DNA from: Stenotrophomonas rhizophila
GTDB taxonomy: Bacteria > Pseudomonadota > Gammaproteobacteria > Xanthomonadales > Xanthomonadaceae
Direction of reading: 5' to 3'
NCBI RefSeq assembly: GCF_000661955.1
Contig: NZ_CP007597.1
Coordinates: forward strand, 620,001 to 684,000
Length of the DNA: 64,000 nucleotides
Made by a program: the position numbers and the translations under genes. A model generated the notes under the pieces. The model ran no database searches and had not been told where the DNA came from. It worked only from the letters and a program-made list of their open reading frames with translations. Position 1 is the stretch's first letter. Each line of letters starts with the position of its first letter. Positions 12,631 through 16,143 of this stretch are shown here, one piece after another.

Positions 12631-12974
12631 CGCCAGCCCATGGCATCGCGGACAGGTGCCGACCCCGCGTCGGCACGCGTCTCCGTCGCATCGCTGTTGG
12701 ACTGCTTAACCTGCTGCTGATTCCGGCGGCATATGCCACCACCCAATGTCCCCCTGAGGCCGGCCACAAGCCCGAGTGGATCGGCTGGTTGGCGGTGGCG
12801 CTGCTGGGCGGCGGCCTGATCGCGGGCCCGCTGCTGGCATGGTGGGTGTTCGCGCGCAGCAAGGGCGCGCGGCTGGGCTGGCGCGTAGTGACCGCCTTCG
12901 CCGGGCTGCTACTGATGCTCGGCCTGTGGGCGGGCTGCGGCGCACTGGCCGGCCACCTCATCCTGAGCTGCTGA
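12627..12974 (+). CDS. Small membrane protein of unknown function
   Basis: The frame overlaps the end of the CBS gene and could start at a TTG at 12627, or at a later codon. From about residue 21 it reads as a hydrophobic leader (IAVGLLNLLLIPAAYA) that may be cleaved. Two strong membrane helices follow: WIGWLAVALLGGGLIAGPLLAWWVF and VVTAFAGLLLMLGLWAGCGALAGHLIL. Four cysteines are present. The true start is uncertain. I recognise no family. A SMAG array follows immediately. Confidence 0.6.
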   Translation: MTPAHGIADRCRPRVGTRLRRIAVGLLNLLLIPAAYATTQCPPEAGHKPEWIGWLAVALLGGGLIAGPLLAWWVFARSKGARLGWRVVTAFAGLLLMLGLWAGCGALAGHLILSC

Positions 12975-12977
12975 TCG

Positions 12978-13070
12978 GTAATGCCGGCCGCTGGCCGGCA
13001 ACCGCTAATCGGTAGTGCCGGCCGCTGGCCGGCAACCGCTAATCGGTAGTGCCGGCCGCTGGCCGGCAAC
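12978..13070 (+). repeat. Three-unit SMAG palindrome array
   Basis: There are three 25-bp units at 12978-13002, 13012-13036 and 13046-13070 with a constant 34-bp step and the identical 9-bp spacer CGCTAATCG. They lie between the membrane protein gene and the convergent udgX-like gene. Confidence 0.93.
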
Positions 13071-13116
13071 CCCTGACGCATCCAAAGCAGCGTACGCCGC
13101 GCAACGCCGCCCTGCA

Positions 13117-14589
13117 TCACCCCTCGCGCCGGTCGTCCAGCAAACGCCGCAGATCCTCCACCAGCCCCCGATACGCCGCCTCCCGCGCCTCGCCCTCGCC
13201 CTGACGCAGCACCCACGCCGGGTGCACCGTGGCGAACGCGCGGGTGCCGTCGTCCAGCGCGTGCCAACAGCCGCGCTTCTCCATCAGGTTGAAGCCCGCA
13301 CCGAACACGGCAGTAGCTGCGGTGGCTCCCAGGCACACGATCACCTGCGGGCGCACGTTCTCAATTTCGGCCATCAGCCACGGTTTGCACGCAGTGACGT
13401 GGGTCATCTGCGGCGTGCTGTGGATGCGCCGTTTACCGCGCCGCTCAAACCGGAAGTGCTTCACCGCATTGGTCATGTACAGCGTGCTGCGGTCGATATC
13501 CAGTTCGGCCAACGCGCGGTTCAACAGCTGCCCGGCCGGACCCACGAAGGGGTGCCCGCTCAGGTCTTCGCTGTCGCCGGGCTGCTCGCCCACCAGCATC
13601 ACCTTGGCGTTCTGCGGCCCTTCACCGAACACCGTCTGGGTGGCCGGTTCCCATAGTGGACAGCGGCGGCACCCCATGGCCGCCGTGCGCAGCGTATCCA
13701 GGTCATCGCCGTTGGCGGTGGCCGGCGCACGCGCGGTAATCCGGCGGTCGGGAATGCGGCGCTGCGGTGCCTGCACGTCGCGGTCATGCATCTCCTGTAC
13801 GCGATCGCCAGCGTCGCGCACCAGCATCGGCAGCAGCGTTGCTTCAGGCAGGTGTTTCCAGTACCTGGCGGGCATTTCCTGCCGCATCATGCGCGTGTTG
13901 AGCCGGGCCGGGTTGAAGATGTTGGCGTAGTACGTGCGCCACAATTCTTCGCGCGCGTCCTCGCGCGGCGCCTGCTCCTGGCTGCCGCCGGGGCCGAATG
14001 ACAGCGTGCTGCCATCCCATCGCGCGCTGCGCGTCGGGGTCAGGATCGCCCACCGCATGCCGGCGAAGCGACGCGCGAAGAAGGGCGCCACCCGGTCCAC
14101 GATGTGGTGGTCTGGCTCGAACCAGGCAATGAACGCCTCTTGCTCGCCGGGTACTTCCCGGAAGCGCACGAACGCCTTCATTTTGTGCGCATCGCGGCGT
14201 ACTGCCTGCGCCAGGGCCATAGCGCGCACCACGTCGGGGTCGGCCGGGTTGGTCAGCAGGCGCCGCTCGCCGTGGGTGATCCGCCACAGCATGCGGTACA
14301 ACAGCGCCAGCCGCTGCGGCTCACGGTGGCACAGGCAGGTGGCGGCCAGTTCGAGAAAATCACGGGGTACCGCGGCCTGCGTCGGCGTGGGCTCCACCGG
14401 TAGCGGCGCATCCAGCACCGAAGGGGCATCGAGCAGCGAGCGGTCGCCGGCATCGAGCCAGTCCAGCTGGGGCGGTGTTACCTGTCGCTGCAACGCCGCC
14501 CGCGCTACCGCGCGCCATGCCTCCACCGACCACGCCGGGTCCACCCGCGCGCTCCAGCGCTGCAGGTCCGTACGTGCCGGACCAGTCAA
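13117..14589 (-). CDS. DUF4130-UdgX fusion, UdgX-type uracil-DNA glycosylase
   Basis: The 490-residue protein joins two parts. Residues up to about 260 form a DUF4130-type domain (LCHREPQRLALLYRMLWRI, HKMKAFVRFRE, FNPARLNTRMMRQEMPARYWKHLPEA). Residues about 295-480 form a family-4-like UDG with an iron-sulfur cluster ligated by cysteines in GCRRCPLW, TACKPW and VIVCLG. The active-site motif is GEQPG (about residue 334) and the R-loop is KRRIHSTP with His near 390. KRRIH is the UdgX signature; in characterised UdgX the loop histidine forms a covalent bond with the abasic sugar after uracil release. HPAWVLR is motif 3. It overlaps the upstream radical SAM gene by four bases. Confidence 0.93.
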   Translation of the reverse strand: MTGPARTDLQRWSARVDPAWSVEAWRAVARAALQRQVTPPQLDWLDAGDRSLLDAPSVLDAPLPVEPTPTQAAVPRDFLELAATCLCHREPQRLALLYRMLWRITHGERRLLTNPADPDVVRAMALAQAVRRDAHKMKAFVRFREVPGEQEAFIAWFEPDHHIVDRVAPFFARRFAGMRWAILTPTRSARWDGSTLSFGPGGSQEQAPREDAREELWRTYYANIFNPARLNTRMMRQEMPARYWKHLPEATLLPMLVRDAGDRVQEMHDRDVQAPQRRIPDRRITARAPATANGDDLDTLRTAAMGCRRCPLWEPATQTVFGEGPQNAKVMLVGEQPGDSEDLSGHPFVGPAGQLLNRALAELDIDRSTLYMTNAVKHFRFERRGKRRIHSTPQMTHVTACKPWLMAEIENVRPQVIVCLGATAATAVFGAGFNLMEKRGCWHALDDGTRAFATVHPAWVLRQGEGEAREAAYRGLVEDLRRLLDDRREG

Positions 14590-15857
14590 AACAACGCACC
14601 CTGCTTCGGTGGCGGCGCCAATCGCGCGCGCAGGGTGGCAGGATCATCCAGCTGCTTGCGGGGATGGTGGTCGGCCAGCTGGACGAACGGCAATAGTTTG
14701 CTCATCGGCGCGCGCAGCCGGGCCACGTCGGCCACCCGCAGGCGGCCATGGCGGCGCGCCATCAATACGCGCTTGACGTTGCGCACGCCCAAGCCGGGAA
14801 TACGCAACAGCAATTCCTTCGGCGCCGTATTGACGTCCACCGGAAAACGCTCGGGGTGTCGGATCGCCCAGGCCATTTTCGGATCGATGTCCAGGTCGAG
14901 CATGCCGCCCTGGGTGGTGTCGGTAATCTCTTCCACCCCGTAGCCGTAAAAGCGCAGCAGCCAGTCGGCCTGATACAGCCGGTGCTCACGCGCCAGTGGC
15001 GGCGCTTGCAGCGGCAGCGCTTTGCTGGCATCGGGGATCGGGCTGAACGCGGAATAGTAAACCCGGCGCATGTGGTAATTGCCATACAGGTTGTCCGCCG
15101 CGCCCAGGATCTGCTGGTCGCTCGCGCCGTCGGCACCGACGATCATCTGTGTACTTTGCCCGGCCGGTGCGAAGCGCGGCGCTCGCGGTTTCCGGGTGCG
15201 CGGGGCCGGGTCGGCCAGCGGCAGGGCAGCGGTCGCCTTGCGCGCCTCCTTGGCCTCCTCGATCCGCCAGCTGAGCTCGCCCATCGCGCCACGGATGGAG
15301 GGCATCGACTTTTCCGGGGCGTAACTGGCCAGCCCGTCTTCAGTGGGCAGTTCGATGTTGATCGACAGCCGATCGGCGTAGCGCCCGGCGGCGGCCAGCA
15401 GTTCCGGCGACGCCTCGGGAATGGTCTTCAGGTGGATGTATCCGGCGAACCGATGTTCCTGGCGCAGCACCCGCGCCACTTCCACCATGCGTTCCATCGT
15501 GTAGTCGGCGTTGCGGATGATGCCGCTGGAAAGGAACAGGCCCTCGATGTAATTGCGCTTGTAGAAATCCATGGTCAGCGCGACCACCTCGTCCACGCTG
15601 AAGCGCGCCCGCTGCACGTTGCTTGAAACCCGGTTCACGCAGTAGGCGCAGTCGTAGATGCAGAGGTTGGTCAGCAGGATTTTCAGCAACGAGACGCACC
15701 GCCCATCCGGGGTATAGCTGTGACAGATCCCCGCGCCCTCGGTGCTGCCGATGCCACCGGATTTGACCGAGTTCCGCTTTCCCGCGCCGCTGGAGGCGCA
15801 GGAGGCGTCGTACTTGGCGGCATCGGCGAGGATGGCGAGCTTGCGCAGGGTGTCCAT
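14586..15857 (-). CDS. Putative DNA modification/repair radical SAM protein (UdgX-linked)
   Basis: The 423-residue protein has the radical SAM cluster motif CIYDCAYC at residues 66-73 and further barrel motifs (FLSSGI, GYIHLKTIPEA, SINIELPT). A helix-hairpin-helix region near residues 335-365 (NTAPKELLLRIPGLGVRNVKRVL) would bind DNA. It matches the uncharacterised family always found next to UdgX-type glycosylases, and here its stop overlaps the udgX-like start by four bases. The chemistry is unknown. The extreme C-terminus KQGALF contains a Q-x-x-L-F motif like those that bind the sliding clamp; this is inference. The ATG at 15857 gives the usual N-terminus of the family (KLAILADAAKYDASCASSG). 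Confidence 0.9.
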   Translation of the reverse strand: MDTLRKLAILADAAKYDASCASSGAGKRNSVKSGGIGSTEGAGICHSYTPDGRCVSLLKILLTNLCIYDCAYCVNRVSSNVQRARFSVDEVVALTMDFYKRNYIEGLFLSSGIIRNADYTMERMVEVARVLRQEHRFAGYIHLKTIPEASPELLAAAGRYADRLSINIELPTEDGLASYAPEKSMPSIRGAMGELSWRIEEAKEARKATAALPLADPAPRTRKPRAPRFAPAGQSTQMIVGADGASDQQILGAADNLYGNYHMRRVYYSAFSPIPDASKALPLQAPPLAREHRLYQADWLLRFYGYGVEEITDTTQGGMLDLDIDPKMAWAIRHPERFPVDVNTAPKELLLRIPGLGVRNVKRVLMARRHGRLRVADVARLRAPMSKLLPFVQLADHHPRKQLDDPATLRARLAPPPKQGALF

Positions 15858-16143
15858 GCGGGCACCCTAAGCAGGGGCGATCTCATCCAGTGAGATTGGC
15901 GGCGGCGCACCCTGAAGCGTTCACGGCCCGCTGCTGGAACGGTCTGTCGCCTCGCGCCGCGCGCCCATTCACGTTCTTCACATTCCCGGCTAGACTTCGC
16001 CCCGGTGCCGCAGGTGCCGGCAGGGAAGCAGACGGGCCAGGAACGGCACGGCAACACGGCATCTGTGATTGCGCGCAGTGTTTGGCCTGGTAGGTCCCCT
16101 CCGGAATCGCGTCGCCTCTCATCCAACCATCAGGGGGCAGTAC

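Follow-up and report, generated by a model that had tools for sequence, protein, structure and literature searches.

A radical SAM protein with a predicted clamp-binding tail and its DUF4130 partner as a candidate DNA-damage repair system

Here, we analysed a stretch of 64,000 nt from Stenotrophomonas rhizophila (NZ_CP007597.1, positions 620,001-684,000, forward strand; hereafter the window), in which two adjoining genes on the minus strand encode a radical S-adenosylmethionine (SAM) protein and a fusion of a DUF4130 domain with a uracil-DNA glycosylase (UDG) domain of the UdgX type. The radical SAM gene (14586-15857, minus strand; 423 amino acids, ATG start) belongs to family TIGR03916 (rSAM_link_UDG), the profile of which matches residues 5-414 with 560 bits against a cut-off of 343.5. 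It is followed by the fusion gene (13117-14589, minus strand; 490 amino acids, TTG start), and the four-base overlap pointed out in a preliminary description of this DNA is borne out by the open reading frames (ORFs): the TGA stop of the first gene and the TTG start of the second share bases 14586-14589 of the minus strand. The complete genome (4.65 Mb, one contig) contains a single TIGR03916 match and three matches to the UDG superfamily. That the two genes form an uncharacterised, coupled DNA-repair pair, as had been proposed, is supported by our analysis, as is a genuine UdgX-type domain.

The fusion protein scores 232 bits with TIGR03915 (cut-off 112.25) and 298 bits with TIGR03914 (cut-off 189.95), in line with 156 bits for DUF4130 and 120 bits for UDG in the Pfam scan. 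Its N-terminal DUF4130 domain (residues 18-249; 13843-14538, minus strand) contains twelve columns that are invariant in 28 diverse rows (H135, R142, F143, P159, F171, R174, W217, R229, P240, W244, L247 and E249). The DUF4130 profile found no match among solved structure chains at E ≤ 10, and the structure match lists obtained for the fusion protein are filled by its UDG half. Profile and structure comparison assign residues 294-485 (13135-13710, minus strand) to a UdgX-type uracil-DNA glycosylase domain, which carries, on the same strand, motif A GEQPG (residues 334-338; 13576-13590), the R-loop KRRIH (residues 386-390; 13420-13434) and motif B HPAWVLR (13204-13224). Thus, the DUF4130 domain, GEQPG and the KRRIH loop were all found as previously described, and the cross-linking histidine expected near residue 390 is indeed residue 390 (13420-13422). 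E and Q of motif A, the R-loop histidine and H and R of motif B are kept in 46/46 fused proteins; the UdgX identity is confirmed by the equivalents of E52, Q53, D56, F65, N91, R107, H109, H178 and R184, which are identical in the same 46 proteins. The available passages of PMC10359453 and PMC10776899 report that UdgX of Mycobacterium smegmatis forms a covalent adduct with uracil-derived abasic DNA. Conservation of the key cross-linking residues, together with a fusion and an overlap that unite all three parts in the window, speaks in favour of the earlier suggestion of a radical SAM enzyme that resolves or edits the covalent UdgX-DNA adduct while DUF4130 serves as adaptor. The distribution of the three parts speaks against it.

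To follow this distribution, we used a census of 587 genomes from two phyla (299 Pseudomonadota and 288 Verrucomicrobiota), with family cut-offs applied. The radical SAM family exceeds its cut-off in 80 genomes (53/299 Pseudomonadota and 27/288 Verrucomicrobiota); the matches in Pseudomonadota score 534-659 bits, the next ones less than 30 bits. DUF4130 is present in every one of these 80 genomes (53/53 and 27/27), whereas UdgX over the family cut-off is missing from 33 of them, namely 13/53 Pseudomonadota, of which four are single-contig assemblies (G046, G082, G190 and G286), and 20/27 Verrucomicrobiota, which hold weaker matches to that model only (7/27 are over the cut-off). Among all 299 Pseudomonadota, DUF4130 is over the cut-off in 56 and UdgX in 52 genomes; 12 of these 52 lack the radical SAM gene and 10 of the 12 also lack DUF4130. 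The control genome of Caulobacter vibrioides (crescentus) gave matches to all three families, cut-offs aside. In Verrucomicrobiota, the radical SAM gene and DUF4130 are found on separate contigs in 5/27 genomes and 5.8 kb apart in one, hence their pairing is independent of linkage. In 42/288 Verrucomicrobiota genomes, a shorter, orphan paralogue (245-301 bits; loci L232-L254) is the only version of the radical SAM protein. In the 24 of these paralogue-only genomes that were tested, DUF4130 was not found; at 20 paralogue loci, the protein mostly has a CxC N-terminus and shows a different cysteine pattern, with neither a DUF4130 neighbour nor any widely conserved one.

A rapid maximum-likelihood tree was built from 75 proteins, with four paralogues as root; on it, UdgX was labelled as present anywhere in the genome for Verrucomicrobiota and at the locus for all others. 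A clade of 16 rows (Bacteroidota, Bacillota, gammaproteobacteria, a faecal contig and Verrucomicrobiota) is devoid of UdgX throughout (SH-like approximate likelihood ratio test, SH-aLRT, 81; not a starred branch) and stands beside the 55 remaining rows (SH-aLRT 93, likewise not starred), in which UdgX comes and goes. We count 13 changes in UdgX, seven of them forced by starred branches, compared to a mean of 23.5 after shuffling; such counts cannot tell gain from loss, and the deep tree is unsure owing to two long rows and an odd letter make-up. In genome G071 (L187), the C-terminal 39 residues of a DUF4130 domain (59% identity) are encoded ahead of a UdgX gene that stands alone, and this remnant of a decayed fusion makes at least one loss likely.

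Since UdgX over the cut-off is missing from 33 of the 80 genomes, the radical SAM enzyme cannot depend on the UdgX-DNA adduct: if it worked on nothing but the adduct, it would lack a substrate across a large part of its range. The census, the UdgX-free clade and the 12 UdgX genomes without the radical SAM gene lead us to regard the adduct reading as very improbable and to reject it as the general function, although the adduct could be a secondary substrate or the target of a side activity in fused lineages. A role of DUF4130 as a mere adaptor is likewise not supported, as it is present in all 80 radical SAM genomes, in many of which UdgX is missing. DUF4130 is the core partner of the radical SAM enzyme, apparently an obligate one, whereas UdgX, the other half of the fusion, seems to be an option.

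For the arrangement of the genes in relatives, our named loci are the best 80 of the 587 genomes scanned (two Verrucomicrobiota, the rest proteobacteria). DUF4130 follows the radical SAM gene on the same strand in 80/80 loci and lies less than 1 kb from it in 51/53 Pseudomonadota genomes, an order that is therefore not due to chance. With the starts chosen, the two genes overlap by four bases in 27 and by one base in 24 of the 80 loci. In 15 loci no UDG half was found, one of them being truncated at a contig end. DUF4130 alone is matched by the partner in Acetoanaerobium and in the faecal contig, and the pair on a Parabacteroides plasmid and that on a contig with the label Acinetobacter phage have a partner of DUF4130 size. 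Several loci deviate from the compact arrangement: a hemerythrin-domain gene (Pfam) lies between the radical SAM and DUF4130 genes in L157, L164, L182 and L183, joined in L182 (by eye also in L183) by a right-handed beta-helix protein and an ORF without Pfam match, and two small opposite-strand ORFs, HigA/HigB-like by eye, are located there in L126 (7248-7892). In L166 (7212-8671), there is no single fused ORF; DUF4130 and UDG are encoded by two separate frames that overlap.

The radical SAM protein of the window ends with QGALF (residues 419-423; 14589-14603, minus strand), a predicted binding motif for the sliding clamp. It fits the general form QxxLF of the clamp consensus QL[S/D]LF, in which positions 1, 4 and 5 are the most important according to the available part of PMC12309361. 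Relatives end with QLSLF, QLELF, QMALF and similar peptides after a linker of variable length, and Q419 is invariant in both of our alignments (A1 and A2). Searching the last 30 residues of 81 proteins for a penta- or hexapeptide pattern of this kind yielded 79 matches (shuffled mean 4.1, highest of 500 shuffles 10), compared to 12/984 stretches from the protein bodies; the strict form occurs in 60/81 (shuffled mean 0.64) and in 0/1222 body stretches. The two misses are the near forms QLDMF and QIELPF. In Verrucomicrobiota, the pattern is found within the last 45 residues of 22/26 proteins (shuffled mean 2.1), and the same scan detected it in none of the 20 orphan paralogue proteins. A distant relative from Gemmatimonadota (33% identity) has QLSLW near its end; the tail may thus not be confined to the family. 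To our knowledge, no radical SAM enzyme is known among clamp-binding proteins. Literature searches, which covered neither most subscription papers nor any bioRxiv preprint, returned no radical SAM protein with a clamp-binding motif or in connection with the beta clamp and uracil.

The upstream regions of many loci are consistent with damage control. Using LexA box types established in the field, a LexA-type box was found upstream of 62/65 alphaproteobacterial loci (0.45 expected by shuffling), 7/8 Burkholderiales loci (0.1 expected), 1/4 gammaproteobacterial loci (Spongiibacter) and, without a shuffle control, 9/27 Verrucomicrobiota loci. In six Burkholderiales loci (L097, L106, L128, L135, L159 and L162), the box and the GTG codon chosen as the radical SAM start overlap. 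LexA-type control of the operon has been inferred in Bacteroidetes and is cited for Verrucomicrobia and Alphaproteobacteria in the accessible passages of PMC8565304. Upstream of the window pair we observed a different element, the palindrome TCTCA-N5-TGAGA (15881-15895), a predicted operator, which begins 38 bp ahead of the radical SAM start codon. It occupies the same 38-bp position in 6/6 sequences of the window family and is found in 0/77 loci of other lineages. The window genome harbours eight such palindromes, one of which looks like a terminator stem (L179). One copy lies about 140 bp before uvrA (L177:1501-1515; C1:3247374-3247388 in the genome itself) and another before mraZ (L178); the other copies in the window family are mostly away from any recognised repair gene. 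A small regulon sharing the palindrome is possible in the window genome, and damage control of the pair would be plausible there.

The radical SAM protein itself shows further conserved features. The cluster motif CIYDCAYC noted earlier is confirmed at residues 66-73 (15639-15662, minus strand; Pfam PF04055), and the CxxxCxxC form is kept in 58/58 aligned proteins. Ahead of it, the N-terminal segment carries three extra cysteines, C20, C45 and C54, as well as H46 (15696-15800, minus strand), all invariant in the 58 rows, so that the protein has six invariant cysteines in total (three of the cluster and three extra); among the same rows, no conserved cysteine follows residue 73. The C20/C45/C54 pattern is also present in the position lists of 27 Verrucomicrobiota and four other sequences. 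C20, C45 and C54 are probable ligands of a second iron-sulphur cluster. A helix-hairpin-helix (HhH) region had also been claimed; in the window protein alone it is weak (residues 338-370; 14748-14846, minus strand; HHH_3 with 19 bits against a cut-off of 27, and weak ComEA/RuvA profile matches), whereas HHH_3 matches 56/58 aligned proteins, including that of the window, at E ≤ 0.1. Lipoyl synthase, biotin synthase and MiaB use an auxiliary cluster for sulphur insertion, and the extra N-terminal cysteines might therefore suggest that the enzyme inserts sulphur or another group into a DNA base. The structural neighbours of the radical SAM model do include lipoyl synthase, HydE and biotin synthase, but the tied top structures give no preference to sulphur insertion, and LexA-type boxes as well as the imu neighbours described below fit a damage response, not a standing modification. 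Hence, we consider DNA modification improbable.

In the survey of the 80 named loci, the imuA-imuB-dnaE2 cassette is the sole recurrent neighbour at a fixed place (imuB in nine loci, dnaE2 in eight and imuA in two). These genes were found with the L110 proteins as queries, the flanks being nearly full in about 59 of the 80 loci. Among the ORFs of L110 are matches to IMS domains, to an error-prone polymerase model (1437 bits) and, weakly, to ImuA (36 bits, cut-off 150). The cassette is oriented head to head with the pair in L110, L120, L121 and L137, and the pair directly follows imuB in L125, L139, L145, L156 and L165. In L125, L139, L156 and L165 it is located between imuB and dnaE2 on one strand, while L145 ends before a dnaE2 could be visible. 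An imu neighbour was seen neither beside the window pair nor in 71/80 named loci within the flanks covered. The other large neighbour groups comprise ABC ATPases, which are scattered without a constant position, and LysR-type paralogues recognised by eye. In the window, the flanking genes (Pfam: SIS/GATase, CBS, one without match, DUF2846, two glyoxalase-like and a PALP enzyme) give no indication of a functional link between any immediate neighbour and the pair. Just 3' of the DUF4130-UdgX gene, a 34-base unit is repeated three times in tandem (97% matches; 12970-13071).

These neighbours bring up the closest rival to a repair function, an accessory role in mutagenesis, in which the pair would act with ImuA-ImuB-DnaE2 on the clamp and prepare lesions or termini for error-prone bypass instead of restoring DNA. 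The nine imuB and eight dnaE2 loci, the SOS boxes and the clamp motif all agree with such a role. So does PMC3765255, the available passages of which call DUF4130 a predicted mutagenesis-related enzyme and place ImuB-C domains in the same operons as SplB-like radical SAM proteins, with which DUF4130 is associated. On the other hand, 71 of the 80 loci have no imu neighbour in the flanks covered (about full on both sides in 59), and six invariant cysteines together with an intact radical SAM motif argue for a chemistry of its own. We thus rate the accessory role as possible, but rather unlikely.

Anti-phage defence, or carriage by mobile elements for their own use, might be suspected from the patchy spread of the system, its occurrence in 158 plasmid records and 10 records labelled phage. 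Still, 142 of the 158 plasmids are typed as non-mobilizable, no PADLOC model matched at E ≤ 0.01, and the one annotated phage-labelled record examined is bacterial DNA, as glyS and glyQ adjoin the pair there. We rejected a phage or defence role on these grounds and regard the entire explanation as extremely improbable.

The reading that we favour is a single DNA-damage-repair system, in which a radical SAM enzyme with a clamp-type tail would work at replication forks, with DUF4130 as its apparently obligate partner and UdgX as an option; we judge the chances of this reading to be about even. Such a clamp-tethered response to damage would explain at once the constant pairing, the absences of UdgX, the clamp motif, the LexA boxes and the imu neighbours. 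DNA damage would induce the pair, and clamp and HhH region would bring the radical SAM enzyme to sites on DNA at which translesion polymerases are active as well. DUF4130 might then recognise or hold the lesion, while the 5'-deoxyadenosyl radical would abstract a hydrogen at the damaged nucleotide, by which the lesion is reversed or made removable. Where present, the UdgX domain might excise a nearby uracil and trap the abasic site via His390. The more specific picture of a two-protein machine that its C-terminal QxxLF tail brings to forks, riding the clamp beside ImuB-DnaE2 and reversing a DNA lesion by means of a second iron-sulphur cluster, with UdgX as a bolt-on, is one we put forward tentatively and hold to be somewhat doubtful.

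Several points weigh against a repair system at forks. The imu neighbourhood fits a role in mutagenesis as well as it fits repair, and the literature passages contained no biochemical or genetic result for any of the proposed steps. The window pair has no upstream LexA box (best match 9/19 bases compared to the genome's own lexA box, TTAGTAGTAATACTACTAA), and in its QGALF position 2 is Gly and not the Leu of the consensus. The pattern is missed by 4/26 Verrucomicrobiota and by 2/4 sequences of other groups (QLSIF in Acetoanaerobium and QLSFF in the faecal contig), and the 81 proteins, being relatives found by similarity, are not independent. In the cofactor-free radical SAM model (predicted local distance difference test score, pLDDT, 85), confidence is low where the extra cysteines lie (pLDDT < 50 at residues 23-45 and 47-53). 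Finally, three Pseudomonadota genomes (G200, G217 and G287) contain DUF4130 but no radical SAM gene, in G200 at the start of a contig, and the system is patchy, with the family absent from a genome of the same genus (G090).

The protein families, the SOS control and the link to ImuB are already in print, while the clamp motif was not found in our literature searches. Catalogues list the families as a putative repair pair to which no reaction is assigned; the census shifts the focus from UdgX to DUF4130, and the clamp-type tail makes the enzyme's place of work testable in a concrete and cheap way. If the repair reading is true, many bacteria would use oxygen-sensitive radical chemistry against DNA damage at replication forks, and the error-prone polymerases would have a further clamp client at their side. 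The two-protein machine on the clamp would provide a second radical SAM chemistry in DNA repair besides spore photoproduct lyase (SPL), and the first one coupled to replication.

In comparison with known systems, the pair corresponds to the TIGR03916/TIGR03915/TIGR03914 set (COG4277 with COG1573), for which NCBIfam and the available passages of PMC3765255 and PMC8565304 give the same families, order and predicted role in DNA repair; those passages of the two papers mention neither a clamp tail nor the extra cysteines nor a test of whether DUF4130 is constant and UdgX dispensable. UdgX of M. smegmatis (6ajo, 6l6s and related entries) is a stand-alone protein, whereas that of the window is fused to DUF4130 and its gene overlaps the radical SAM gene. 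Compared to lipoyl synthase, biotin synthase and HydE, the sequence match of the window enzyme is negligible (best E 0.015) and its substrate would be DNA; the spacing of C20, C45 and C54 differs from that in lipoyl synthase. The hydrogen donor of SPL is C141 in Bacillus subtilis, together with tyrosines. A clostridial SPL uses C74, placed elsewhere, according to the part of PMC5368176 available. The likeness to SplB lies in a radical SAM enzyme acting on damaged DNA, and PMC3765255, in the passages available, calls the DUF4130-associated enzymes SplB-like; unlike SplB, the window enzyme has an HhH region, a clamp-type tail and three extra cysteines before the cluster. We rejected membership in the SplB family, as NCBIfam and Pfam scans at E ≤ 0.001 give no SPL model; SPL is also absent among the 50 structure matches listed, which excludes nothing. 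ImuB is itself a clamp-binding protein. With ImuA-ImuB-DnaE2, the pair shares the locus in 9/80 relatives and the SOS setting, but it has no polymerase and most loci lie apart. The tail resembles those of clamp-binding replication and repair proteins such as PolC of B. subtilis with its C-terminal QLSLF (PMC12309361, in the part available): the radical SAM protein, too, presents a C-terminal peptide of the QL[S/D]LF type after a variable linker.

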